NCBI RefSeq assembly: GCF_017310545.1
Contig: NZ_CP066203.1
Coordinates: 1 to 64,000, forward strand
Origin: Methylacidimicrobium sp. B4
GTDB lineage: Bacteria > Verrucomicrobiota > Verrucomicrobiia > Methylacidiphilales > Methylacidiphilaceae
Reading direction: 5' to 3'
DNA: 64,000 bases
The notes beneath the pieces are model-generated. The model ran no database searches, was not told the origin of the DNA, and saw only the letters and a program-made list of their open reading frames with translations. A program made the position numbers and the translations under genes. Positions 10,276 through 20,277 of the stretch are shown piece after piece (position 1 is the first letter of the stretch; each line of letters begins with the position of its first letter).

Positions 10276-11244
10276 CTACTCCGCGGGCCGCGTCGCGACG
10301 ATGCTGTCGAGCGGCCGGGGGATCTGGCCGACCTCCCAGAGAAGCCAGCTGTAGCTTTTTCGTGGGTTCTTGTCCTTGGGGAGCAGGATCGCTCTCTGCA
10401 CGAAATCGACGGCGCTGATCGTCCATGGCGACCAGGATAGCCGCCATCCCGCGCCTTGAAGGGCCTGAACTTGCGCCGCCGCATCCGGCGACTCATCGAG
10501 GAGTGCGTCGATGCCAGAGCCTAGGCCGGTGTCAGCGCGGGCCCGGATCGGTTTGCCCGGTCGACGGGCATCTGCGCTACCGGCGGCAGGGGAGATGGGT
10601 GTCTTCCGGTAGAGGCTGCACTGCTGCAAGCGCCGGGGGCCCTCCGAGCGAAAGCGAAGGAGGATCGTTTCGTCGGTGCTCTCCCAGAACAGAAAGTCGG
10701 GAGCGGCCAGTTCCCAATACTTCCCGATGGCTCGCCAACCGGGAGGAATCCGGGGGTTGAGTCCTACCCGGCCTCCGGGCCGGTAGCCCAGGGCGTCGGA
10801 GGGCAGGATTCCCACGAGAGCCGGATCGAGGTCGAGGATCAAAAAGGAGGACCAGCCTTGGTTCGCTCGCTCCGGCAGCCGCAATTCGACGCGTCGAACC
10901 CAAGGGCGAGTTGCGCCGGAGGTTTCATAGACAGCGACCCAATCGTTCCTCTCGATCCGGTGGAATGAGGCCCCTACGCTCGCTTCCAGTCGAGCGACGG
11001 TCGCCGGCTGAATCCGGAGCAGGTCCTCGATCCAGGAAAAGAGCTCTCGAGCGTCTGCTCGCTGGAGCGGACCTTCCTGAGCCACGGCGATGCCGGTGAG
11101 CTCCGCCGCCGAGGCCACGCTGCGCTGCATCGAGAGGTCGCCGTAGAAGACCAAAAGAATCAGCGCCGCTGCAGAGACGATTTGTGGCGCCGGGAAAAAG
11201 CGGCGCACGCGGCAGGGGACAAAGCCTCGCGGGCGATTCCTCAA
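10276..11244 (-). CDS. Membrane-anchored protein of unknown function, coupled to the Gly/His-rich protein gene
   Basis: This 322-residue protein has a basic N-terminus and one hydrophobic segment (about 20-37), then a soluble domain that would lie outside the cytoplasm. No family was recognised. The start is TTG, in TTGA at 11241-11244, which overlaps the stop of the upstream gene, so translation is probably coupled. The next Met is 39 codons in and would remove the membrane segment. Trp-rich strands (NDWVAVYE, RPWVRRVELRLPE, PPGWRAIGKYWEL) suggest a beta-rich fold. The coupling argues that the two products work together. Confidence 0.6.
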   Translation of the reverse strand: MRNRPRGFVPCRVRRFFPAPQIVSAAALILLVFYGDLSMQRSVASAAELTGIAVAQEGPLQRADARELFSWIEDLLRIQPATVARLEASVGASFHRIERNDWVAVYETSGATRPWVRRVELRLPERANQGWSSFLILDLDPALVGILPSDALGYRPGGRVGLNPRIPPGWRAIGKYWELAAPDFLFWESTDETILLRFRSEGPRRLQQCSLYRKTPISPAAGSADARRPGKPIRARADTGLGSGIDALLDESPDAAAQVQALQGAGWRLSWSPWTISAVDFVQRAILLPKDKNPRKSYSWLLWEVGQIPRPLDSIVATRPAE

Positions 11245-12812
11245 CGGTGTCCCCCTCCTCCCCCGTGAAATCCGCCGAAACCGCCGTGAAATCCGCCCAT
11301 GCCCCCCATTCCACCATGAAAGCCTCCCATTCCACCATGAAATCCCCCCGGCATCCCATGCAGGCCATGAATTCCGCCTGCGCCGATGGCCGCTCCATGG
11401 AAGAGGCTCGCGGATCCTCCGACTCCGTGGAACATGCCTCCATGGGAGAGTCCCGTGGCTCCGTGGAAGGCGCCGCCGTGAGCGAGGCCGGATGCTCCGT
11501 GGAAGGCGCCTGACGGAGAAAGGCCGCCGGCTCCATGAAAGGCTGCGGCCGACTGCGGCAAGCCCGCGTGGCCTGCGAAGCTACCCGCTCCGAAACCGCC
11601 TCTCCCGCCAAGGCCATGGGTGTAAGCCGCGGAGCCCAAGTTCGAGCCATGGAGAGCCGCGGAGGTGACCGACCGGCCGGCGATGTCGTGCACCCCCGGG
11701 CTAAAGAGATGCTGCGGGTGCACCGCGGTTTGGGAGGGGAAACCTCCGTGCGCGATCGCGGAAGCGGGGTGGCCTCCCGGTGCTCCCGGATGCAAAGAGC
11801 CCTGCCCGGGAGCGATCCCGCCCGCATGGGTCGCCCCGCCTGCCGGCGACCCGTGGCCGACCCCATGCTGCGTCAACCCATGGTGGGCGGCCGGGGCCGA
11901 GTGGCTCGGGTCGTGGGCTTGCGCCGCCGCCTGGTGGCTGGTCGCCGCCGCGCTGTGTTGCTGTTGTTGTTGCTGCTGCTTTTGCTGTTGTGCGGTGTTG
12001 TTTTGTTCCACGATCACCATGGGAAAGAAAAAGGGCCAGAAGCCCCAGCCCCACAGGCCCATTCCCCACATCCCCCACATGCCGAAGCCTCCCCATCCCC
12101 AGTAGGGGTAGCCTCCATAGCCTCCATACCCTCCGTAGGTGGTCGTTGCTTCCGTGTCGCCGACGAACGGGTAGGTGCTACCGGGGCCGATTCCGGAATC
12201 CGCCACTGGAGGGTTCGTTCCCGGAACGTCAGGAGGAGGCACCGAGAAATCTTCCGGGGAGAAGCCGGGCTGCTGGGCGGTGGGTGCCTGCTCCTGCGCG
12301 GCGAGCATGGTCCATCGCTCCTCGAGCAGTGCGATGCGTTGACGAGCCGATTCGTCCCACTGCCGGTCCTGGTTGATTTCAGTCAGGAAAGCCCTCCAGG
12401 AGGGGGCCGCGACAGCGGGGAAAAGAGAGTCGGAAGAGGGGAGGCCGAGGCGTGCCGCGGCTTGATCGGCCCCGGCCTGGATCTGGTTGGCGAGGGTCGA
12501 GGCCCGATCGAGCAGCTCTCGGAACCGGGCGCTCGCCACCTGGAGCAGGTCTGTGGGAATCCCTTGCGATTGGGTGGCGGCCTCTCCCTGCGCGAGCAGG
12601 CGTTCGAGCAGGAGCTTTTGCTGGACGAGCTCGCCGCGAAGCGCATCCAGCTGGGGAAGAGAACGGCTGAGAACGGTCTGAAAGTCCGATACGACCGCCT
12701 TGCGCTCCTGGGCATCCTTGACCGTTTTCGCCGCCCAGTTCCCGGCGGCTGCCAAGGCGCACACGACCAGCAGCAAGGCCGCCCAGCCCTTCCAGCCAGA
12801 CAACTGCTTCAT
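11241..12812 (-). CDS. Membrane-anchored protein with Gly/Trp/Tyr-rich, polyGln and Gly/His-repeat regions
   Basis: This 523-residue protein is of unknown function. A signal anchor (about 7-27) is followed by a charged, mostly helical region (about 30-185). Next come a Pro-rich linker, an aromatic Gly/Tyr/Trp/Phe stretch (about 226-264), a Gln run (275-285) and a 240-residue tail extremely rich in Gly, His and Ala. The tail holds 12-residue repeats of the form AFHGAxGLxHGG (about 425-470) and GGFHGGM-type repeats to the end. The ATG at 12812 has a strong GGGGAGGGAG ribosome binding site; the TTG nine codons upstream does not. The His density suggests metal binding or pH sensing, which is inference only. 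It overlaps the next gene by TTGA. Confidence 0.7.
   Translation of the reverse strand: MKQLSGWKGWAALLLVVCALAAAGNWAAKTVKDAQERKAVVSDFQTVLSRSLPQLDALRGELVQQKLLLERLLAQGEAATQSQGIPTDLLQVASARFRELLDRASTLANQIQAGADQAAARLGLPSSDSLFPAVAAPSWRAFLTEINQDRQWDESARQRIALLEERWTMLAAQEQAPTAQQPGFSPEDFSVPPPDVPGTNPPVADSGIGPGSTYPFVGDTEATTTYGGYGGYGGYPYWGWGGFGMWGMWGMGLWGWGFWPFFFPMVIVEQNNTAQQQKQQQQQQQHSAAATSHQAAAQAHDPSHSAPAAHHGLTQHGVGHGSPAGGATHAGGIAPGQGSLHPGAPGGHPASAIAHGGFPSQTAVHPQHLFSPGVHDIAGRSVTSAALHGSNLGSAAYTHGLGGRGGFGAGSFAGHAGLPQSAAAFHGAGGLSPSGAFHGASGLAHGGAFHGATGLSHGGMFHGVGGSASLFHGAAIGAGGIHGLHGMPGGFHGGMGGFHGGMGGMGGFHGGFGGFHGGGGGHR
11244..11540 (-). repeat. Tandem Gly/His-coding repeats
   Basis: Within the Gly/His-rich gene, the DNA repeats with two periods. 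Units of about 36 bases code for AFHGAxGLxHGG (roughly 11400-11540). Shorter units code for GGFHGGMG-like motifs (roughly 11253-11345). A separate Gln-codon run (CAG/CAA) lies at 11958-11990. Such coding repeats are prone to length change by slippage, so allele length may differ between strains. Confidence 0.7.
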
Positions 12813-12839
12813 GGGAAACTCCCTCCCCGACAGGAACAA

Positions 12840-13721
12840 TTAAGCACCTCCTGTGATCCGTGGCAAACACGGGGCATCGGACGCGAGGATCCGGGCTTGG
12901 CCCGCATAGATGTTAAAACGTTCTCCCCGAAGAAATCCTACCAGCGTGAGCGCAAATTCCCGGGCAAGGCGCACGGCCAGGCTACTCGGTGCAGAAACGG
13001 CGCAAAACACTGGAAGCCCTGCCGCAAGCGCCTTTTGCAAAAGCTCGTAGCTGGCACGCCCGCTCACCAGGACGAGGCAGTCCGAAAGGGGAAGCCGGTT
13101 TTGGAGAAGAGCCCATCCGATGAGCTTGTCCATCGCATTGTGACGGCCCACGTCCTCCCGCAAGGCGATCAGCTCTCCTTGCCTGGTAAAAAGGCCCGCC
13201 GCGTGGAGACCGCCGGTAGAGCGAAAGATCCCCTGCCGGGAGCCAAGCCTTCCCGGCAGAAGAGGCAGAAGGGCGGCCGGGACCGTCCACCGGAGGGACA
13301 GAGGCTGGCAGCCGCGGTCGCGAAGCGTCTCGAGCGAAGCGCGCCCGCAGACACCGCAGGCGCTCGTCGTCAAGAAATGGCGCTCGAGACCGCCAAAATC
13401 TGGCAGGCGGTCCGCGGCCAGATCGACCGTAACGATATTGTAGAGCTGTTCCTCCTCCCGCACCCGATCCACGCAGTAGGAGATCGAGCGGATGGAGCGG
13501 GCATCGCGGACGATTCCTTCTCCGTACAGAAACCCCGCGGCAAGCTCGAAATCCGAGCCCGGGGTGCGCATCGTGATGGCCACGACCCGCTCGTCGCGTC
13601 CGGCGCGAAGGCGAATCTCCAAGGGCTCCTCCACGGCGACCGAATCGGTGCGGCGGAGCAGGCTCGCTTTCTCCCAAGTCCAGAGATCGACGCTCGCTTT
13701 GCTCGTGGGCCGGATCCCCAT
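12840..13721 (-). CDS. fdhD: Formate dehydrogenase accessory sulfurtransferase FdhD
   Basis: The 293 residues match FdhD, which passes sulfur from IscS to the molybdenum/tungsten bis-MGD cofactor and so activates formate dehydrogenase. The sulfur-carrying pair is in TTSACGVCG (C122 and C125 counted from the ATG at 13721). Other family landmarks are EEPLEIRL, FELAAGFLYGEG, ALREDVGRHNAMDKLIG and VSGRASYELLQKA. An upstream ATG at 13820, with a GGGGAG before it, would add 33 basic residues and is a real alternative. No formate dehydrogenase gene is in the window, but its presence elsewhere is implied, fitting a C1 metabolism. Confidence 0.92.
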   Translation of the reverse strand: MGIRPTSKASVDLWTWEKASLLRRTDSVAVEEPLEIRLRAGRDERVVAITMRTPGSDFELAAGFLYGEGIVRDARSIRSISYCVDRVREEEQLYNIVTVDLAADRLPDFGGLERHFLTTSACGVCGRASLETLRDRGCQPLSLRWTVPAALLPLLPGRLGSRQGIFRSTGGLHAAGLFTRQGELIALREDVGRHNAMDKLIGWALLQNRLPLSDCLVLVSGRASYELLQKALAAGLPVFCAVSAPSSLAVRLAREFALTLVGFLRGERFNIYAGQARILASDAPCLPRITGGA

Positions 13722-14045
13722 TCGGCCACTATACGCCCCCCAGCGGAAGCGGAGCAATGGTGCGCGCCGGGCACACGAGCCTTTCCTCCCTGGGCGGGGG
13801 TTTCGGTGAGCCTTTGCCATCGGCTCCCCGGGGCATTTCGGGAAACCGGGGGTCGAACGGCATGTCGTTTGGCTCGTGCTTGGCGGCGGTTTCCCGTGGG
13901 TCGCCCGAGTCAATCGCGGAGCGGCCTCAGCGCGGGGCTGGCCATCGGCCACCCGCTCTGCGGTTGGTTGGAGCAAAGCCCATGCGATCGACTCGGCGTC
14001 CCGGTGAGTCGGCCGCCCACCGATCCCAAGAGAACAAAGGGAATC
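13722..14045. other. Intergenic between rnpB and fdhD
   Basis: These 324 bases lie downstream of the rnpB RNA and upstream of fdhD, both on the minus strand. The fdhD frame stays open to 13976, so part of this could be an N-terminal extension (see the alternative ATG at 13820). I see no terminator with a T run and no other gene. Confidence 0.4.
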
Positions 14046-14530: not shown

Positions 14531-15151
14531 TCAGTCCAAAGAGAGGGAAAGTCCCGCGAGCGCCGCTTTCGTCGTCGCATAGCCCCGATGACAGATCCCT
14601 TCGATTCCGAGCCTCCGGGCCACATCGACGAACATCGGACGGTCCTCGATATAGGCGCATTGCGGCGGGGGAGTCTGCGAGACGTCGAGCGCCAATCGAA
14701 AGATCTCCTCGTCGGGCTTCCGCAGATGAACGAAGGACGAGACGATGAAGTAGTCGATGAAGGAGGCCAGAGCGAAGGCTTGAATCCGGTGGACCTGAAG
14801 CTCCCTGCCTTCGTTGCTCAATACCGCCACCTTGAGCCCGTGCTTCGCCTTGAGCTTCTGCACAAGCTCGATCATCTCCGGAAAGGAGGAGGATTGAGCG
14901 AACATGAACTTCCGGAATTCCTGCATCGTGAAGGGCCGGCTCTGGTAGAAGACGATTCGTTCCAAGTAGCCGTCGAGGGTCAGCTTCCCGACTTCGTAGG
15001 TGTCGAAGGTCAGGTGATGCCGTTCTTCCATCTCTGCCGCATCCAAGCCGAATGCTTCCGCGGCCTTCCTCCGGCATGCGGTATCCCAGCCGTTGGAAAG
15101 GAGGACTCCCCCGAGATCCAAAAAAAGGGTGGTGATCGGAGCACTGCTCAT
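14531..15151 (-). CDS. HAD-superfamily hydrolase (YihX-like)
   Basis: This 206-residue HAD phosphatase-like enzyme carries motif I as LFLDLGGVL with nucleophile Asp12, motif II as VAVLSNEG, a motif III lysine in LRKPDEEIF, and motif IV as YIEDRP. The second Asp of the classical DxD is Gly, as in YihX-type and related family members that often act on sugar phosphates. The helical cap sits at about 20-90. It is a cytosolic enzyme and the substrate cannot be assigned. The ATG at 15151 gives a family-typical N-terminus. Confidence 0.85.
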   Translation of the reverse strand: MSSAPITTLFLDLGGVLLSNGWDTACRRKAAEAFGLDAAEMEERHHLTFDTYEVGKLTLDGYLERIVFYQSRPFTMQEFRKFMFAQSSSFPEMIELVQKLKAKHGLKVAVLSNEGRELQVHRIQAFALASFIDYFIVSSFVHLRKPDEEIFRLALDVSQTPPPQCAYIEDRPMFVDVARRLGIEGICHRGYATTKAALAGLSLSLD

Positions 15152-15244: not shown

Positions 15245-16453
15245 TCATCCGGCCCGCCGGGAGCTCCAAGCCGTGACCGCGAGGGTCCCGAAGGCGCAGA
15301 GGCCTGTGCCGAGCAAGATCGTGGCCGGAGCCCCCCAGAAGCGGGAGACGAGCGCGGCGAAGAGGCTCCCGATGGGGAAGAGGCCTTGGAAGAGAAATGT
15401 GGCGATTCCCACTACTCGTCCCCGCAGCTCTCGGACCGCATGCTCCTGGAGGAACGCATTCCCTGCCGAAAGGAAGACGACCAGTCCCAAGCCCGCTAGC
15501 CCGAGGAGTGCTGTCGAGACGAGGAAGGAGCGGGAGAGGGAAAAGCAGGCCGCCGAAAGGAGGAAGATCCCGAGGCCGCCCAAGACGAGCCGGGGGAGCG
15601 GAAGGGTGCGCACGAGGCTGGTCGCCGCCAGGCTGCCCAAGAGGGATCCGGCACCGCTTGCAGAAATCAGGATCCCCAGCCCCTTGGGGCCGCTGTGGAG
15701 AATGCTTTCGGCAAAGAAAGGGAGCAATACCGTGTAGGACCAGCCGAAGACCGTGACGAGGCCGATCAAGGAGGCCTGGCCGAGGAGGGGCTTCCTTGCC
15801 GCGATGTAGCGGACCCCCTCCCGAAGGGAGTGGAGGAAGGGCCTCCGGGAAGGGCATTGTGGCGAAGAGGACACCCAGAAGAGGCAGCCGAGGGAGAGGA
15901 GGTAGGAAAGAGCGTTGGTCCAGAAACAGGCGGCCACGCCGAGCGAGGGGATCAGGAAGGCGGCGACGGCCGGGCCGATCAAGCGCGCTCCGTTGAAGAG
16001 CACTGAGTTCCAGGCGACCGCAGCGCGAAGTTCCTCCTTCGGGGCAACGTCGAGGAAGAGGGCTTGCCGCGCAGGAAGCTCGAAGGAGCCGGCAAGGCCG
16101 AGGGCAAAGACGAGGAGGCCCAGAGCCCAAAGAGAGAGGAGATGGAGGAAGGCGAGGAGGCCCAGAGCCGAAGCGAGAAGGAGCGCCGCGATTTGCGCAA
16201 GGATCACGATCCTCCGCCGCGGGAACCGATCGGCCATGGCGCCGGCTGGAAGGGAAAAGAGGAGCAGGGGAAGGGAGCCGGCACAAGCGAAAAGGCCCAG
16301 CCAAAACGGCGATCCGGTCATCTGGTAGACGAGCCATCCTTGGCCTACGTTGTGGACCCAGCTGCCGAGGAAGGAGGAAGCCTGTCCCAGGAAGAGCATC
16401 CGGAAGGGGGCGGAGCGAAAAGGGGCCAGCTGGGGAAAAATCTTCATGGGCAT
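15245..16453 (-). CDS. Major facilitator superfamily exporter (EntS/MFS_3-like)
   Basis: This 402-residue membrane protein has about 12 hydrophobic segments. The MFS signature between TM2 and TM3 is visible as GAMADRFPRRRIVI. The pattern near the start (FRMLFLGQASSFLGSWVHNVGQGWLVYQMTGSP) is typical of the MFS_3/enterobactin-exporter-like group, proton-coupled efflux proteins of the inner membrane. The substrate is unknown. The frame stays open to 16699, but that extension is low-complexity and runs antisense into the divergent PQQ gene; the ATG at 16453 puts the first helix at the normal distance. Confidence 0.88.
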   Translation of the reverse strand: MPMKIFPQLAPFRSAPFRMLFLGQASSFLGSWVHNVGQGWLVYQMTGSPFWLGLFACAGSLPLLLFSLPAGAMADRFPRRRIVILAQIAALLLASALGLLAFLHLLSLWALGLLVFALGLAGSFELPARQALFLDVAPKEELRAAVAWNSVLFNGARLIGPAVAAFLIPSLGVAACFWTNALSYLLSLGCLFWVSSSPQCPSRRPFLHSLREGVRYIAARKPLLGQASLIGLVTVFGWSYTVLLPFFAESILHSGPKGLGILISASGAGSLLGSLAATSLVRTLPLPRLVLGGLGIFLLSAACFSLSRSFLVSTALLGLAGLGLVVFLSAGNAFLQEHAVRELRGRVVGIATFLFQGLFPIGSLFAALVSRFWGAPATILLGTGLCAFGTLAVTAWSSRRAG

Positions 16454-16623
16454 GTGCCTGCCACTCGATAAAATGCGCTGAGTTTTGTTCGAGGAAAGAG
16501 CGTCAGGCTCCGCGAGAAGATCGGAGCGACGGCCAGGCCACGCGAGCACTGTGTCGCGCCGCCGAGCAGGGGTTCCGATGTCCGGTGCGATTGGGGAAGA
16601 GGGGAAGGAGTGGAGGAGCAAGG

Positions 16624-18471
16624 ATGGGGATCGAACGGTGGACGAGGGGAAGGGAGAGAGACCATGGATGCGGCTTTCGGACGAGTTGGATATATCCACT
16701 AATCCTCCTGGTGGCCATGCCCTTCTCGTTGTGGGCCAACGAGGAGCTGCTGCGGCTGGGAGCCGATCCCGGTCAATGGCCGATGCAGGCCAAGAATTAC
16801 GCGGCGACGCGATACAGCGAGCTTGACCAGATCAACGCGAGGACGATCGAACGGCTGCACGTGGTCTGGAGCTTCTCTACCGGCGCCCTTCGAGGCCATG
16901 AAGGGGGACCGCTGGTCGTCGGCGGCGTCATGTACGTTCACTCTCCTTTCCCGAACACGGTCTATGCTCTCGATCTGGCAAAAAAGCCCTACGCGATCCT
17001 GTGGAAGTATACGCCGGAGCAAAAGCCGACGGCGATTACGGAGGCTTGTTATGATACCGTCAACCGGGGCGTCGCTTATGGGATGGGGAAGATCTTTCTC
17101 GGAACCCTGGATGGACAGCTGATCGCCTTGGACGCCCACACCGGCGGGGAAGTATGGAAGGTGAAGCAGGGCGAGATCGGGCGTGGGGAGACGATTACCG
17201 GAGCCCCCATCGTGGTCAAGGACATGGTCTTGGTCGGAATCTCCGGGGGTGAGTTCGGAGTCCGGGGGCGGGTCAACGCGTACGACGCGAACACCGGCAA
17301 GCCGCGCTGGGTGGCGTACAGTCAGGGGCCGGACGACGATGTCTTGCTCGAGGGCGATTTCAACAAGGAATGTCCGCGCCATGGCGGAGAAGGGGAGGGG
17401 ACGCGCTCCTGGCCCGGGGAGCAGTGGAAGCTGGGCGGAGGCACTACCTGGGGCTGGTTCAGCTACGATCCGGAACTCGACCTCTTCCACTATGGGTCCG
17501 GCAACCCGGGCTCCTGGAACCCCGACGAGAGAAAGGGAGGAGACAACAAGTGGGCCTGCACGCTCTGGGGGCGGCGGCCGGCGACGGGAATGGCCCGCTG
17601 GGCCTACCAGATGACTCCCTGGGACGCCTGGGGCTACGACGGGACGAGCGAGCTTGTCCTGGTCGATCTGCGGATTGGAGGGACGGCGCGCAAATGCGCC
17701 GTTCATTTCGACAAGAACGGTTATGCCTACACGCTCGACCGGGGAACCGGGGAGGTTCTCTCGGCGTCCCCCTTCGTCTACGTGAACTGGGCCAAGGGAA
17801 TCAGCCGCGGGGATGACCGCCCGATTGAAATCCCGGAGAAGAGAGCGAAGGCAGGCGTGGATATCAAGGGAGTCTGCCCGTCGGCCATGGGGGGAAAGAA
17901 TCAGCAGCCGGCGGCCTACGACCCGCAGACTCATCTTTTCTACGTCGGGACCAACAATCTCTGCATGGATATCCAGGCCACGGAAGTCCGCTACATTTCG
18001 GGCAGCCCCTACATCGGAGCCGACCTGAAGATCTACTCCGGTCATGAGGGCCAGGACAAATACTACGGCGAGTTCATTGCCTGGGACCCGGTAAAAGGCA
18101 GGCGGGCTTGGGAAATCCAGGAGAGGTTCCCGGTCTGTAGCGGCGCGCTGGCGACCTCCGGCGGCCTGGTCTTCTATGGGACGCTCGACGGCTGGTTCAA
18201 GGCCGTCGATGCCCGGACCGGGGTCGTTTTGTGGCAGCAGAAGCTCGGCTCGGGGATCGTCGGCAGCCCGATCGCCTTCCTCGGACCGGACAACAAGGAA
18301 TACGTAGCCGTCTATTCGGGGATCGGCGGCTGGTTTGGCTTGCCGGTTGCGCTCGATCTGCCCAAGGGCGATCCGCAAGCGGCCATGGGTGCCGCGGGAG
18401 CGGCCTACGACTCCCACCTTCCGGAATCGACGACGCCGGGAGGGGAGCTGGTCGTCTTCGGCTTGGACTAG
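16624..18471 (+). CDS. Divergent XoxF/methanol-dehydrogenase-like PQQ-dependent dehydrogenase
   Basis: This 615-residue protein follows the eight-bladed MDH large-subunit pattern from QWPMQAKNYAATRYSELDQI to GGELVVFGLD. An N-terminal hydrophobic signal (about 22-38) predicts a periplasmic location. Aligned to SolV XoxF with a constant offset of 38, the metal ligands Glu (E210, in GGEFGVRG) and Asn (N294, in GSGNPGSWN) are kept, and the extra Asp typical of lanthanide enzymes is kept (D339). The catalytic Asp between them is Gly (G337, in DAWGYDG). The vicinal Cys-Cys near PQQ is Cys-Tyr (C142-Y143). The ATG at 16624 has a strong GGAGGAG. No cytochrome cL, xoxJ or PQQ genes are adjacent. Function as a methanol dehydrogenase is doubtful. 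Confidence 0.88.
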   Translation: MGIERWTRGRERDHGCGFRTSWIYPLILLVAMPFSLWANEELLRLGADPGQWPMQAKNYAATRYSELDQINARTIERLHVVWSFSTGALRGHEGGPLVVGGVMYVHSPFPNTVYALDLAKKPYAILWKYTPEQKPTAITEACYDTVNRGVAYGMGKIFLGTLDGQLIALDAHTGGEVWKVKQGEIGRGETITGAPIVVKDMVLVGISGGEFGVRGRVNAYDANTGKPRWVAYSQGPDDDVLLEGDFNKECPRHGGEGEGTRSWPGEQWKLGGGTTWGWFSYDPELDLFHYGSGNPGSWNPDERKGGDNKWACTLWGRRPATGMARWAYQMTPWDAWGYDGTSELVLVDLRIGGTARKCAVHFDKNGYAYTLDRGTGEVLSASPFVYVNWAKGISRGDDRPIEIPEKRAKAGVDIKGVCPSAMGGKNQQPAAYDPQTHLFYVGTNNLCMDIQATEVRYISGSPYIGADLKIYSGHEGQDKYYGEFIAWDPVKGRRAWEIQERFPVCSGALATSGGLVFYGTLDGWFKAVDARTGVVLWQQKLGSGIVGSPIAFLGPDNKEYVAVYSGIGGWFGLPVALDLPKGDPQAAMGAAGAAYDSHLPESTTPGGELVVFGLD

Positions 18472-18561
18472 GCGGTCGATCGGCGGCAGAGGGGACGACG
18501 GAGCTGCGGCCCGCTCTCCGGAGCTCGTTGCGAAGCGCACCAGCCGGAGTAGGTTGCTTCT

Positions 18562-18933
18562 ATGAAGACGACCCTGACGAATGAGCGCTGCACCGCCTGC
18601 CGGAAGGATGCTCCCCGGCTGACGGAGGCCGAGGTGGAGGAGCTGCGGCACCAGGTGCCTGAGTGGAAGGTCGAGCAGAGGGGGGAGATGCCGATCCTGG
18701 AAAGAGTCTTTTCCTTTCCCGACTTCGCCCAAGCGCTGCGCTTCAGCCAGTTGGTCGGCGAGCTCGCCGAGCAAGAGGGGCACCACCCGGCCATCCTGAC
18801 CGAGTGGGGGAAGGTGACGGTGAGCTGGTGGACCCACAAGATTCGCGGATTGCACCGGAATGACTTTGTCATGGCGGCAAAGACAGGTGCCCTCTACGAG
18901 GCCGAGGCGGGGCGCTCCTCCCGGAAGGAATGA
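18562..18933 (+). CDS. phhB: Pterin-4a-carbinolamine dehydratase (PCD/DCoH)
   Basis: The 123 residues match PCD, which dehydrates 4a-hydroxy-tetrahydropterin so that pterin cofactor can be recycled. The family signature is complete: EGHHP (H74, H75, P76), W84-GKVTVSWWTHK with H92, and D101 in HRNDFVMAAK. Two extra cysteines (C10, C13) sit in the N-terminal extension. It lies 90 bases after the PQQ dehydrogenase on the same strand, with no obvious functional tie. No aromatic amino acid hydroxylase is in the window. Confidence 0.92.
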   Translation: MKTTLTNERCTACRKDAPRLTEAEVEELRHQVPEWKVEQRGEMPILERVFSFPDFAQALRFSQLVGELAEQEGHHPAILTEWGKVTVSWWTHKIRGLHRNDFVMAAKTGALYEAEAGRSSRKE

Positions 18934-19006: not shown

Positions 19007-19909
19007 CTACGCGGGAATCTCGCGGGCTCTCCGATCGAGGAAGGTCAGCTCGGAGATGGCCGACTTGTCGAGCTGACCGGCGCCGAGCTTGACCAGTCGG
19101 TCGTACTGACACTTCGTGGCATCGGCGAGCGCGAGATGGAGACCCAGCTCGCGTGCGAGCCCCAAGGCGATTCCCGAATCCTTGGCGGCGTGCTCCGCCG
19201 AGAAGAAGCAGCTGTGCTCCCGGTTTTGCATGTCCTCGCCATCAGTCTGCAGCACCCGCGAAGCCGCTCCGGTCTGGCCAAAGACGTTGCGGATCATATC
19301 GAGATCGAGCCCGAGCGCATGCGCCAGGCCCAACCCTTCGGCTAGCCCGAGGGTGTTGATGTTCATGACCATGTTCACCAAGGCCTTGACCTGGGCGGCC
19401 TTGCCGGCGCTTCCGACGTAGGTGAGGGCCGTGCTCAGCGCATCGAGGACCGGCTTGACCTTCTGAAAGACGGCTTCCTTGCCGCCGACCATGAGGTAAA
19501 GCTTTCCTTCCCGGGCTTGCGGAATGCTCGAGGCCAGACAGCCTTCCAGGCTTGAGGCGCCGACCTTTTCGACGATCTCTTCGACCTCGACATGCACCTT
19601 CGGGCTGACGGTCGCGCAGTTGATGAAGATCTTTCCGGCAGCCTTGCTTTTCAGCAGATTGTCTTCGGGGGATTCGAAAATGCCCAGCTGGGCCTTATCA
19701 TCGGTAACGACCGTGAAGATGATGTCGGCAAGCTCAGAGACCTGAGCAAGGGTCGAGCAGGCGGTTGCGCCGATTTCAGGCGCGAGCTCCTTGGCCGACT
19801 CCGCTCGCACGTCATAGACCGCGGTGACAGGGAATTTCTTATCGTGCAGGCAGCGGGCCATGTTGGCTCCCATCCGCCCGACTCCAACAAAACCGATCTT
19901 ATCGCTCAT
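19007..19909 (-). CDS. NAD(P)-dependent beta-hydroxyacid dehydrogenase (HIBADH/GarR/glyoxylate reductase family)
   Basis: This 300-residue cytosolic oxidoreductase has the dinucleotide motif GFVGVGRMG (6-14), the substrate-binding stretch GCLASSIPQAREGKLYLMVGG and the catalytic lysine K175 with N179 in KAAQVKALVN. This places it in the 6-phosphogluconate/3-hydroxyisobutyrate dehydrogenase superfamily. Members reduce tartronate semialdehyde, succinic semialdehyde or glyoxylate, or oxidise 3-hydroxyisobutyrate; sequence alone does not decide. The ATG at 19909 is preceded by GGAGGAAGCA, a strong ribosome binding site. A clear terminator follows the gene. Confidence 0.88.
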   Translation of the reverse strand: MSDKIGFVGVGRMGANMARCLHDKKFPVTAVYDVRAESAKELAPEIGATACSTLAQVSELADIIFTVVTDDKAQLGIFESPEDNLLKSKAAGKIFINCATVSPKVHVEVEEIVEKVGASSLEGCLASSIPQAREGKLYLMVGGKEAVFQKVKPVLDALSTALTYVGSAGKAAQVKALVNMVMNINTLGLAEGLGLAHALGLDLDMIRNVFGQTGAASRVLQTDGEDMQNREHSCFFSAEHAAKDSGIALGLARELGLHLALADATKCQYDRLVKLGAGQLDKSAISELTFLDRRAREIPA

Positions 19910-20277
19910 TGCTTCCTCCAATTTCCAAGAAGTTTCGCTCTTCGATTCGTCTCCGGGCGAAAGCCAAGCTCACGCTCGAAAGACCATTGACCACTCACTC
20001 CACTCGCTCAGGAGCGCTCCTCCGACCTGTCCGCGCCGCCCTCCCGAACCCAGGACACGATCCCACTCTTCCACCGCGATCCTCGGTCCGTCCGGTCGAA
20101 GCGTTCTCGCAGACCCGCTTTCGGCCGCCGAGCGCCGGAGCGAGATGCCATTTAGACAGCACTGCTGCTGAGAATCAAGCTTCTCTCCAAGGTGGCTCAG
20201 AGGAATTTCTGCGGAGCCGAGGGCGTCGGGCGCCCGATCGGGGAAGGATGGGAGCGCCCGCCCGCATCCCCTGCCCG
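19910..20277. other. Intergenic, no gene seen
   Basis: These 368 bases lie between the end of lpdA and the start of the beta-hydroxyacid dehydrogenase, both on the minus strand. A 12-base palindrome (TCGGGCGCCCGA, near 20227-20238) sits about 40 bases after the lpdA stop and might act in termination, but there is no T run. The part next to 19909 should hold the dehydrogenase promoter; no clear -35/-10 pair was identified. Confidence 0.35.

Follow-up and report, generated by a model that had tools for sequence, protein, structure and literature searches.

The window, a stretch of 64,000 nucleotides from the single 2.37 Mb contig of Methylacidimicrobium sp. B4, contains an intact open reading frame (16624-18471, +) whose 615 amino acid product is an XoxF2-type member of the PQQ-dependent methanol/ethanol dehydrogenase family, scoring 639 bits with TIGR03075 against a cut-off of 480. 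The frame opens with an ATG at 16624 that is preceded by a ribosome-binding site, GGAGGA (16612-16617, +), and both are kept in all seven Methylacidimicrobium orthologues; an upstream GTG at 16585 is thus a less likely start. Residues 1-38 (16624-16737, +) form a signal peptide with its cleavage site placed by alignment, in that the mature protein begins with NEEL, opposite residue 1 of SolV XoxF2 (PDB 4mae, 6fkw), which also has a signal peptide, and in 7/7 orthologues the mature start follows a hydrophobic leader whose last residues are A-N. Residues 39-615 align with residues 1-577 of 4mae without a gap and at 66% identity, so that the offset of 38 residues given in the initial annotation is exact, as is the pairing of Glu210, Asn294 and Asp339 with Glu172, Asn256 and Asp301 that was built on it. 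When the protein is modelled with AlphaFold2 (mean pLDDT 84.5), it and 4mae superpose over 573 residues with 1.6 A rmsd and a Z of 59; the XoxF fold is kept in this model, with low confidence in the loop around Gly337 (block 331-340 at 58). Relatives named PQQ-empty, the acido-empty-quinoprotein group A of TIGR04528, provide a precedent for catalytically empty members, but they are a separate group to which the window protein, at 291 bits and far under the curated cut-off of 650, does not belong.

The genes around xoxF2 are those found in the sister genus. A HAD hydrolase (14531-15151, -) and a divergent MFS transporter (15245-16450, -, start approximate) lie on one side, and a pterin-4a-carbinolamine dehydratase (18562-18933, +) and a 3-hydroxyisobutyrate-dehydrogenase-like gene (19007-19921, -) on the other. 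In Methylacidiphilum the order runs HAD, MFS, xoxF2, xoxJ (a family 3 binding protein), a cytochrome-c/XoxJ-like fusion, pterin dehydratase, hydroxyisobutyrate-dehydrogenase-like, E3 and E2; in the window a gap of 90 bases (18472-18561) takes the place of xoxJ and of the xoxG(J) cytochrome gene. The same order minus this pair is present in G000 (the genome of the window), G001 and G005, and in G004 up to the contig limit, while G006 has different genes 3' of xoxF2 and is likewise without xoxJ and xoxG. By tblastn, no xoxG/xoxJ-like pair was found in the whole 64 kb window, in about 8.7 kb downstream of xoxF2 in G006, or in stretches of about 19 kb from G001 and G005, and a Methylacidiphilum cytochrome query had its sole match in the B4 genome adjoining xoxF1 (C1:88786-89106). 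Electron-acceptor genes therefore do not adjoin xoxF2. Both genes are present in G008, a third genus that branches off basally in the tree, and xoxJ adjoins xoxF in the acidobacterial relative L031; the stem of Methylacidimicrobium is therefore the most likely place for the loss of the pair. A horizontal origin of xoxF2 was rejected, given flanks as in Methylacidiphilum and a sister position in the tree; a plasmid search returned relatives of less than 60% identity only. Also near xoxF2 are an FdhD-like ORF (formate dehydrogenase accessory, assigned by eye; 12840-13976, -), syntenic in Methylacidiphilum, and a low-complexity Gly/His/Phe-rich protein with repeated GxFHG units (11241-12839, -), and in G006 a Cas10-like ORF with a GGDD motif, again by eye, lies 3' of xoxF2 (L108:7830-10811, +).

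Substitutions in the active site

Residue roles were taken from PMC8546591 and PMC11845868 and from general knowledge of MxaF. In XoxF, Asp299 and Asp301 are both reported to coordinate lanthanide (PMC8546591), and coordination of the metal requires Asp301 (Good 2020, as cited in PMC8546591). The window protein keeps the metal ligands Glu210 (17251-17253, +), Asn294 (17503-17505, +) and the lanthanide-diagnostic Asp339 (17638-17640, +), the last at a position where MxaF has Ala. In the tree it groups within XoxF2. Asp299 and the vicinal disulfide, however, are lost. The catalytic Asp is Gly337 (GGC, 17632-17634, +) and Cys104-Cys105 is Cys142-Tyr143 (17047-17052, +; Tyr143 is TAT), both as first read from the letters and now confirmed by alignment and by re-reading of the codons. 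As Asp299 is itself a metal ligand, its replacement takes away a ligand as well as the base, and the metal affinity of the protein should drop.

Further changes, beyond those first annotated, include Lys364 for Arg326 (17713-17715, +) and Asn426 for Asp388 (17899-17901, +), which are fixed in the Methylacidimicrobium clade, and Cys505 for Trp467 (18136-18138, +), the Trp being lost only in the subclade of the window genome, G001 and G005 (3/7 orthologues). We take Arg326 and Asp388 to be equivalent to Arg331 and Asn394 of MxaF, the latter also on alignment with 4tqo. Together with C105Y, R326K and D388N, the W467C change may mean that PQQ is no longer bound in the proteins that carry it. At Gly316 (Ala278; 17569-17571, +) the protein has the residue of MxaF 4tqo, where 88/88 other XoxF-like sequences have Ala.

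Comparison with known proteins places these changes in context. MxaF shares the fold, the Gly at the Ala278 position and the Asn at the Asp388 position, but it keeps the catalytic Asp and the Cys-Cys pair, has no Asp301 equivalent and works with MxaI. The D303E mutant of M. extorquens MxaF (PDB 1h4j) has Glu at the catalytic position, against Gly here. Quinoproteins of unknown function that are without Cys-Cys, mentioned in PMC11845868, share the disulfide loss but retain DYD and thus the catalytic Asp.

The substitutions are a property of the genus. All seven Methylacidimicrobium genomes have an intact orthologue at 84-95% identity, and WGYDG and Cys-Tyr are present in every one of these proteins. 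Among them is the AP8 XoxF2 of M. thermophilum (MTHMO_v1_1756, in G005; 88%), published as a second methanol dehydrogenase, which differs from the window protein in nothing essential. Gly337 with Tyr143 occurs in 7/7 genus members and in 0/88 other XoxF-like sequences, among which Asp299, Cys104 and Cys105 are invariant; five Methylacidiphilum genomes and G008 have WDYDG and Cys-Cys. Taking all columns that are invariant in the 88, the clade departs at three only, namely C105Y, A278G and D299G, while R326K is also seen in 8/88. Glu210, Asn294 and Asp339, and in addition Glu93, Arg148, Trp276 and Trp570, are kept in 7/7 orthologues. That the two codons are artefacts of sequencing or assembly, a concern at the outset, is excluded, since seven separate assemblies agree on the residues but not on the synonymous codons used for them (Gly337 GGC/GGA, Tyr143 TAT/TAC, with Asp339 GAC/GAT); the residues themselves have been maintained through codon drift.

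Selection on xoxF2

In the tree, the Methylacidimicrobium XoxF2 clade (support 100/100) is sister to Methylacidiphilum XoxF2 (95/92), and its stem is fast, with a branch of 0.42 versus 0.18 for Methylacidiphilum. Asp299 and Cys105 were lost on this stem, before the genus radiated, and strong purifying selection has acted since. Pairwise omega (Nei-Gojobori) for xoxF2 within the genus is 0.05-0.11, compared with 0.03-0.12 for xoxF1 of the same genomes, and in most of these pairs xoxF2 has about double the dN of xoxF1 and also a larger dS. In three close pairs 17-36 amino acid changes were observed against 51-111 expected under a neutral simulation. These results, together with the intact ORFs, establish that despite its fast stem xoxF2 is functional at the protein level, and the loss of catalytic residues under purifying selection is the pattern of a conserved pseudoenzyme.

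It is thus very improbable that the gene is a decaying, silenced relic of the ancestral xoxF2. The lost catalytic residues and partner genes, the W467C change in one subclade and the low expression in AP8 (PMC7907005) are what such a relic would display, but omega, the 7/7 intact ORFs and the rejected neutral simulation speak against it, as does the fact that the losses are older than the genus radiation. Neutral decay was accordingly rejected, with room left only for very recent relaxation in single strains. The initial annotation had proposed, from the retained lanthanide-type Asp and the lost base, a possible non-dehydrogenase that binds PQQ or metal; that proposal fits the evidence, with the amendment that the gene is no relic and the case not an isolated one, the loss being genus-wide and under selection.

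Purifying selection would also be expected of a remodelled but active PQQ enzyme, in which Asp339, Glu210, Tyr143 or a metal-bound hydroxide would serve as base, acting on another substrate or with another metal and passing electrons to XoxG from the xoxF1 locus. The remaining ligand set of Glu, Asn and one Asp resembles the Ca site of MxaF, A278G and D388N match 4tqo, R326K has its counterparts elsewhere in the family, and the rest of the pocket is nearly invariant within the clade (1/20 pocket positions vary, versus 126/557 others; p 0.04). Differences fixed relative to the sister group are found at 4/20 pocket positions versus 36/557 others (Fisher p 0.04, one-sided), an enrichment that is suggestive only, as the 20 positions were chosen from what we take to be the pocket of MxaF. 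Against an active enzyme are the invariance of Asp299 and both Cys in the 88 homologues and their presence in the aligned MxaF, the absence of the partner cytochrome gene from the locus, and the reported need for Asp301 in metal coordination (cited in PMC8546591). On balance such an enzyme is unlikely, although it is the main rival to a non-catalytic role.

A probable non-catalytic role

In the AP8 studies all Methylacidimicrobium strains are stated to have XoxF1 and XoxF2 (Schmitz 2021 and Picone 2021; PMC8546591, PMC7907005), and the presence of two lanthanide methanol dehydrogenases in the genus has been cited, up to a 2025 survey, as suggesting functional specialisation (PMC12482762, PMC8498564). 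The AP8 work found xoxF2 expression 85-fold below that of xoxF1, or "barely expressed", and proposed testing heavier lanthanides as a means of switching it on (PMC7907005). The gene has therefore been known, but as a second methanol dehydrogenase; what would be new is a conserved pseudoenzyme with a genus-wide loss of catalytic residues. Searches of the open-access literature, in the text available there, returned no mention of the lost Asp or Cys of Methylacidimicrobium XoxF2 and nothing on an inactive XoxF.

Loss of the catalytic acid and the disulfide, combined with strict preservation by selection, suggests that Methylacidimicrobium XoxF2 is probably not a spare enzyme but a protein that binds metal or cofactor without catalysing a reaction. 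We would put at about one half the probability that it is an exported pseudoenzyme kept for a non-catalytic job, most likely as a sensor or buffer that binds lanthanide, either alone or together with PQQ. In this genus, which has a second system (xoxF1-xoxJ-xoxG), xoxJ and the cytochrome gene are missing from the ancestral xoxF2 locus. From what is known of PQQ dehydrogenases, a protein without general base, disulfide and adjacent electron acceptor would oxidise methanol very slowly or not at all. Less certainly, Glu210, Asn294 and Asp339 could still hold a lanthanide in the periplasm, perhaps with PQQ, and the protein would then most likely either inform a sensor kinase in the membrane of the lanthanide/PQQ status or act as a lanthanide/PQQ buffer. 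Its low expression in AP8 is hard to reconcile with buffering in bulk.

The second system is present as the initial annotation had asked: the B4 genome has a canonical XoxF1 with DYD and Cys-Cys (G000, C1:90986-92713), 51% identical to the window protein. XoxF1 co-occurs with XoxF2 in 6/7 genus genomes, the exception (G003) being an 83%-complete MAG. The AP8 XoxF1 (PDB 7o6z), an active enzyme, shares the fold and the lanthanide-type Asp with the window XoxF2, from which it differs in having DYD, Cys-Cys and adjoining XoxJ and XoxG. The co-occurrence of XoxF1 and XoxF2 and the fold conserved in the model would be in keeping with a protein that partners XoxF1 in a structural or regulatory way, forming mixed dimers or acting as an assembly factor through the XoxF surface and not the active site. 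Identity to XoxF1 is only about 50%, however, the AP8 genes are expressed at very different levels, and the AP8 crystal contains an ordinary XoxF1 dimer (PMC8546591), so that a partner of this kind is distinctly unlikely.

For a non-catalytic lanthanide binder, the genes next to xoxF1 are of interest. Directly upstream of it are a TonB receptor, a HAMP histidine kinase and a sigma54-type response regulator (L112:11131-16456, -), and the xoxF1-linked kinase is present in 7/7 genus genomes at 74-100% identity. Published accounts describe related arrangements: in Methylorubrum XoxF seems to serve as a periplasmic signal sensed by MxcQ (PMC11845868; also PMC9291206), and in Methylobacterium aquaticum a lanthanide TonB receptor gene lies just upstream of mxcQE (PMC9260416). 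With this precedent and the kinase/TonB module at xoxF1, a sensor role for a dead XoxF2 becomes testable. A narrower proposal, that XoxF2 is a dedicated periplasmic lanthanide/PQQ sensor with metal in the old active site, informing this module and so setting lanthanide uptake and xoxF1 expression, is in itself unlikely. No sensor gene adjoins xoxF2. A simple pattern search found no sigma54-type site 5' of xoxF2.

If XoxF2 cannot oxidise methanol, both the reading of functional specialisation and gene counts based on xoxF2 would be wrong for the genus. Moreover, with a natural D299G/C105Y variant that is maintained by selection, catalysis by XoxF could be told apart from its roles in metal binding, structure or signalling, a distinction that is hard to draw for the regulatory role proposed in Methylorubrum, where the same protein is also the enzyme.

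Some features of the xoxF1 loci may also be recorded. The XoxJ homologue adjoining xoxF1 (L112:7295-8911, -; G000:C1 about 89.3-90.9 kb, outside the window) has a C-terminal ankyrin-repeat domain that is also found in AP8 (L113) and is absent from Methylacidiphilum XoxJ. Strain LP2A (G001) has two xoxF1 copies (L021, L023), and in xoxF1 of L021 and L020 WDYDA takes the place of WDYDG.
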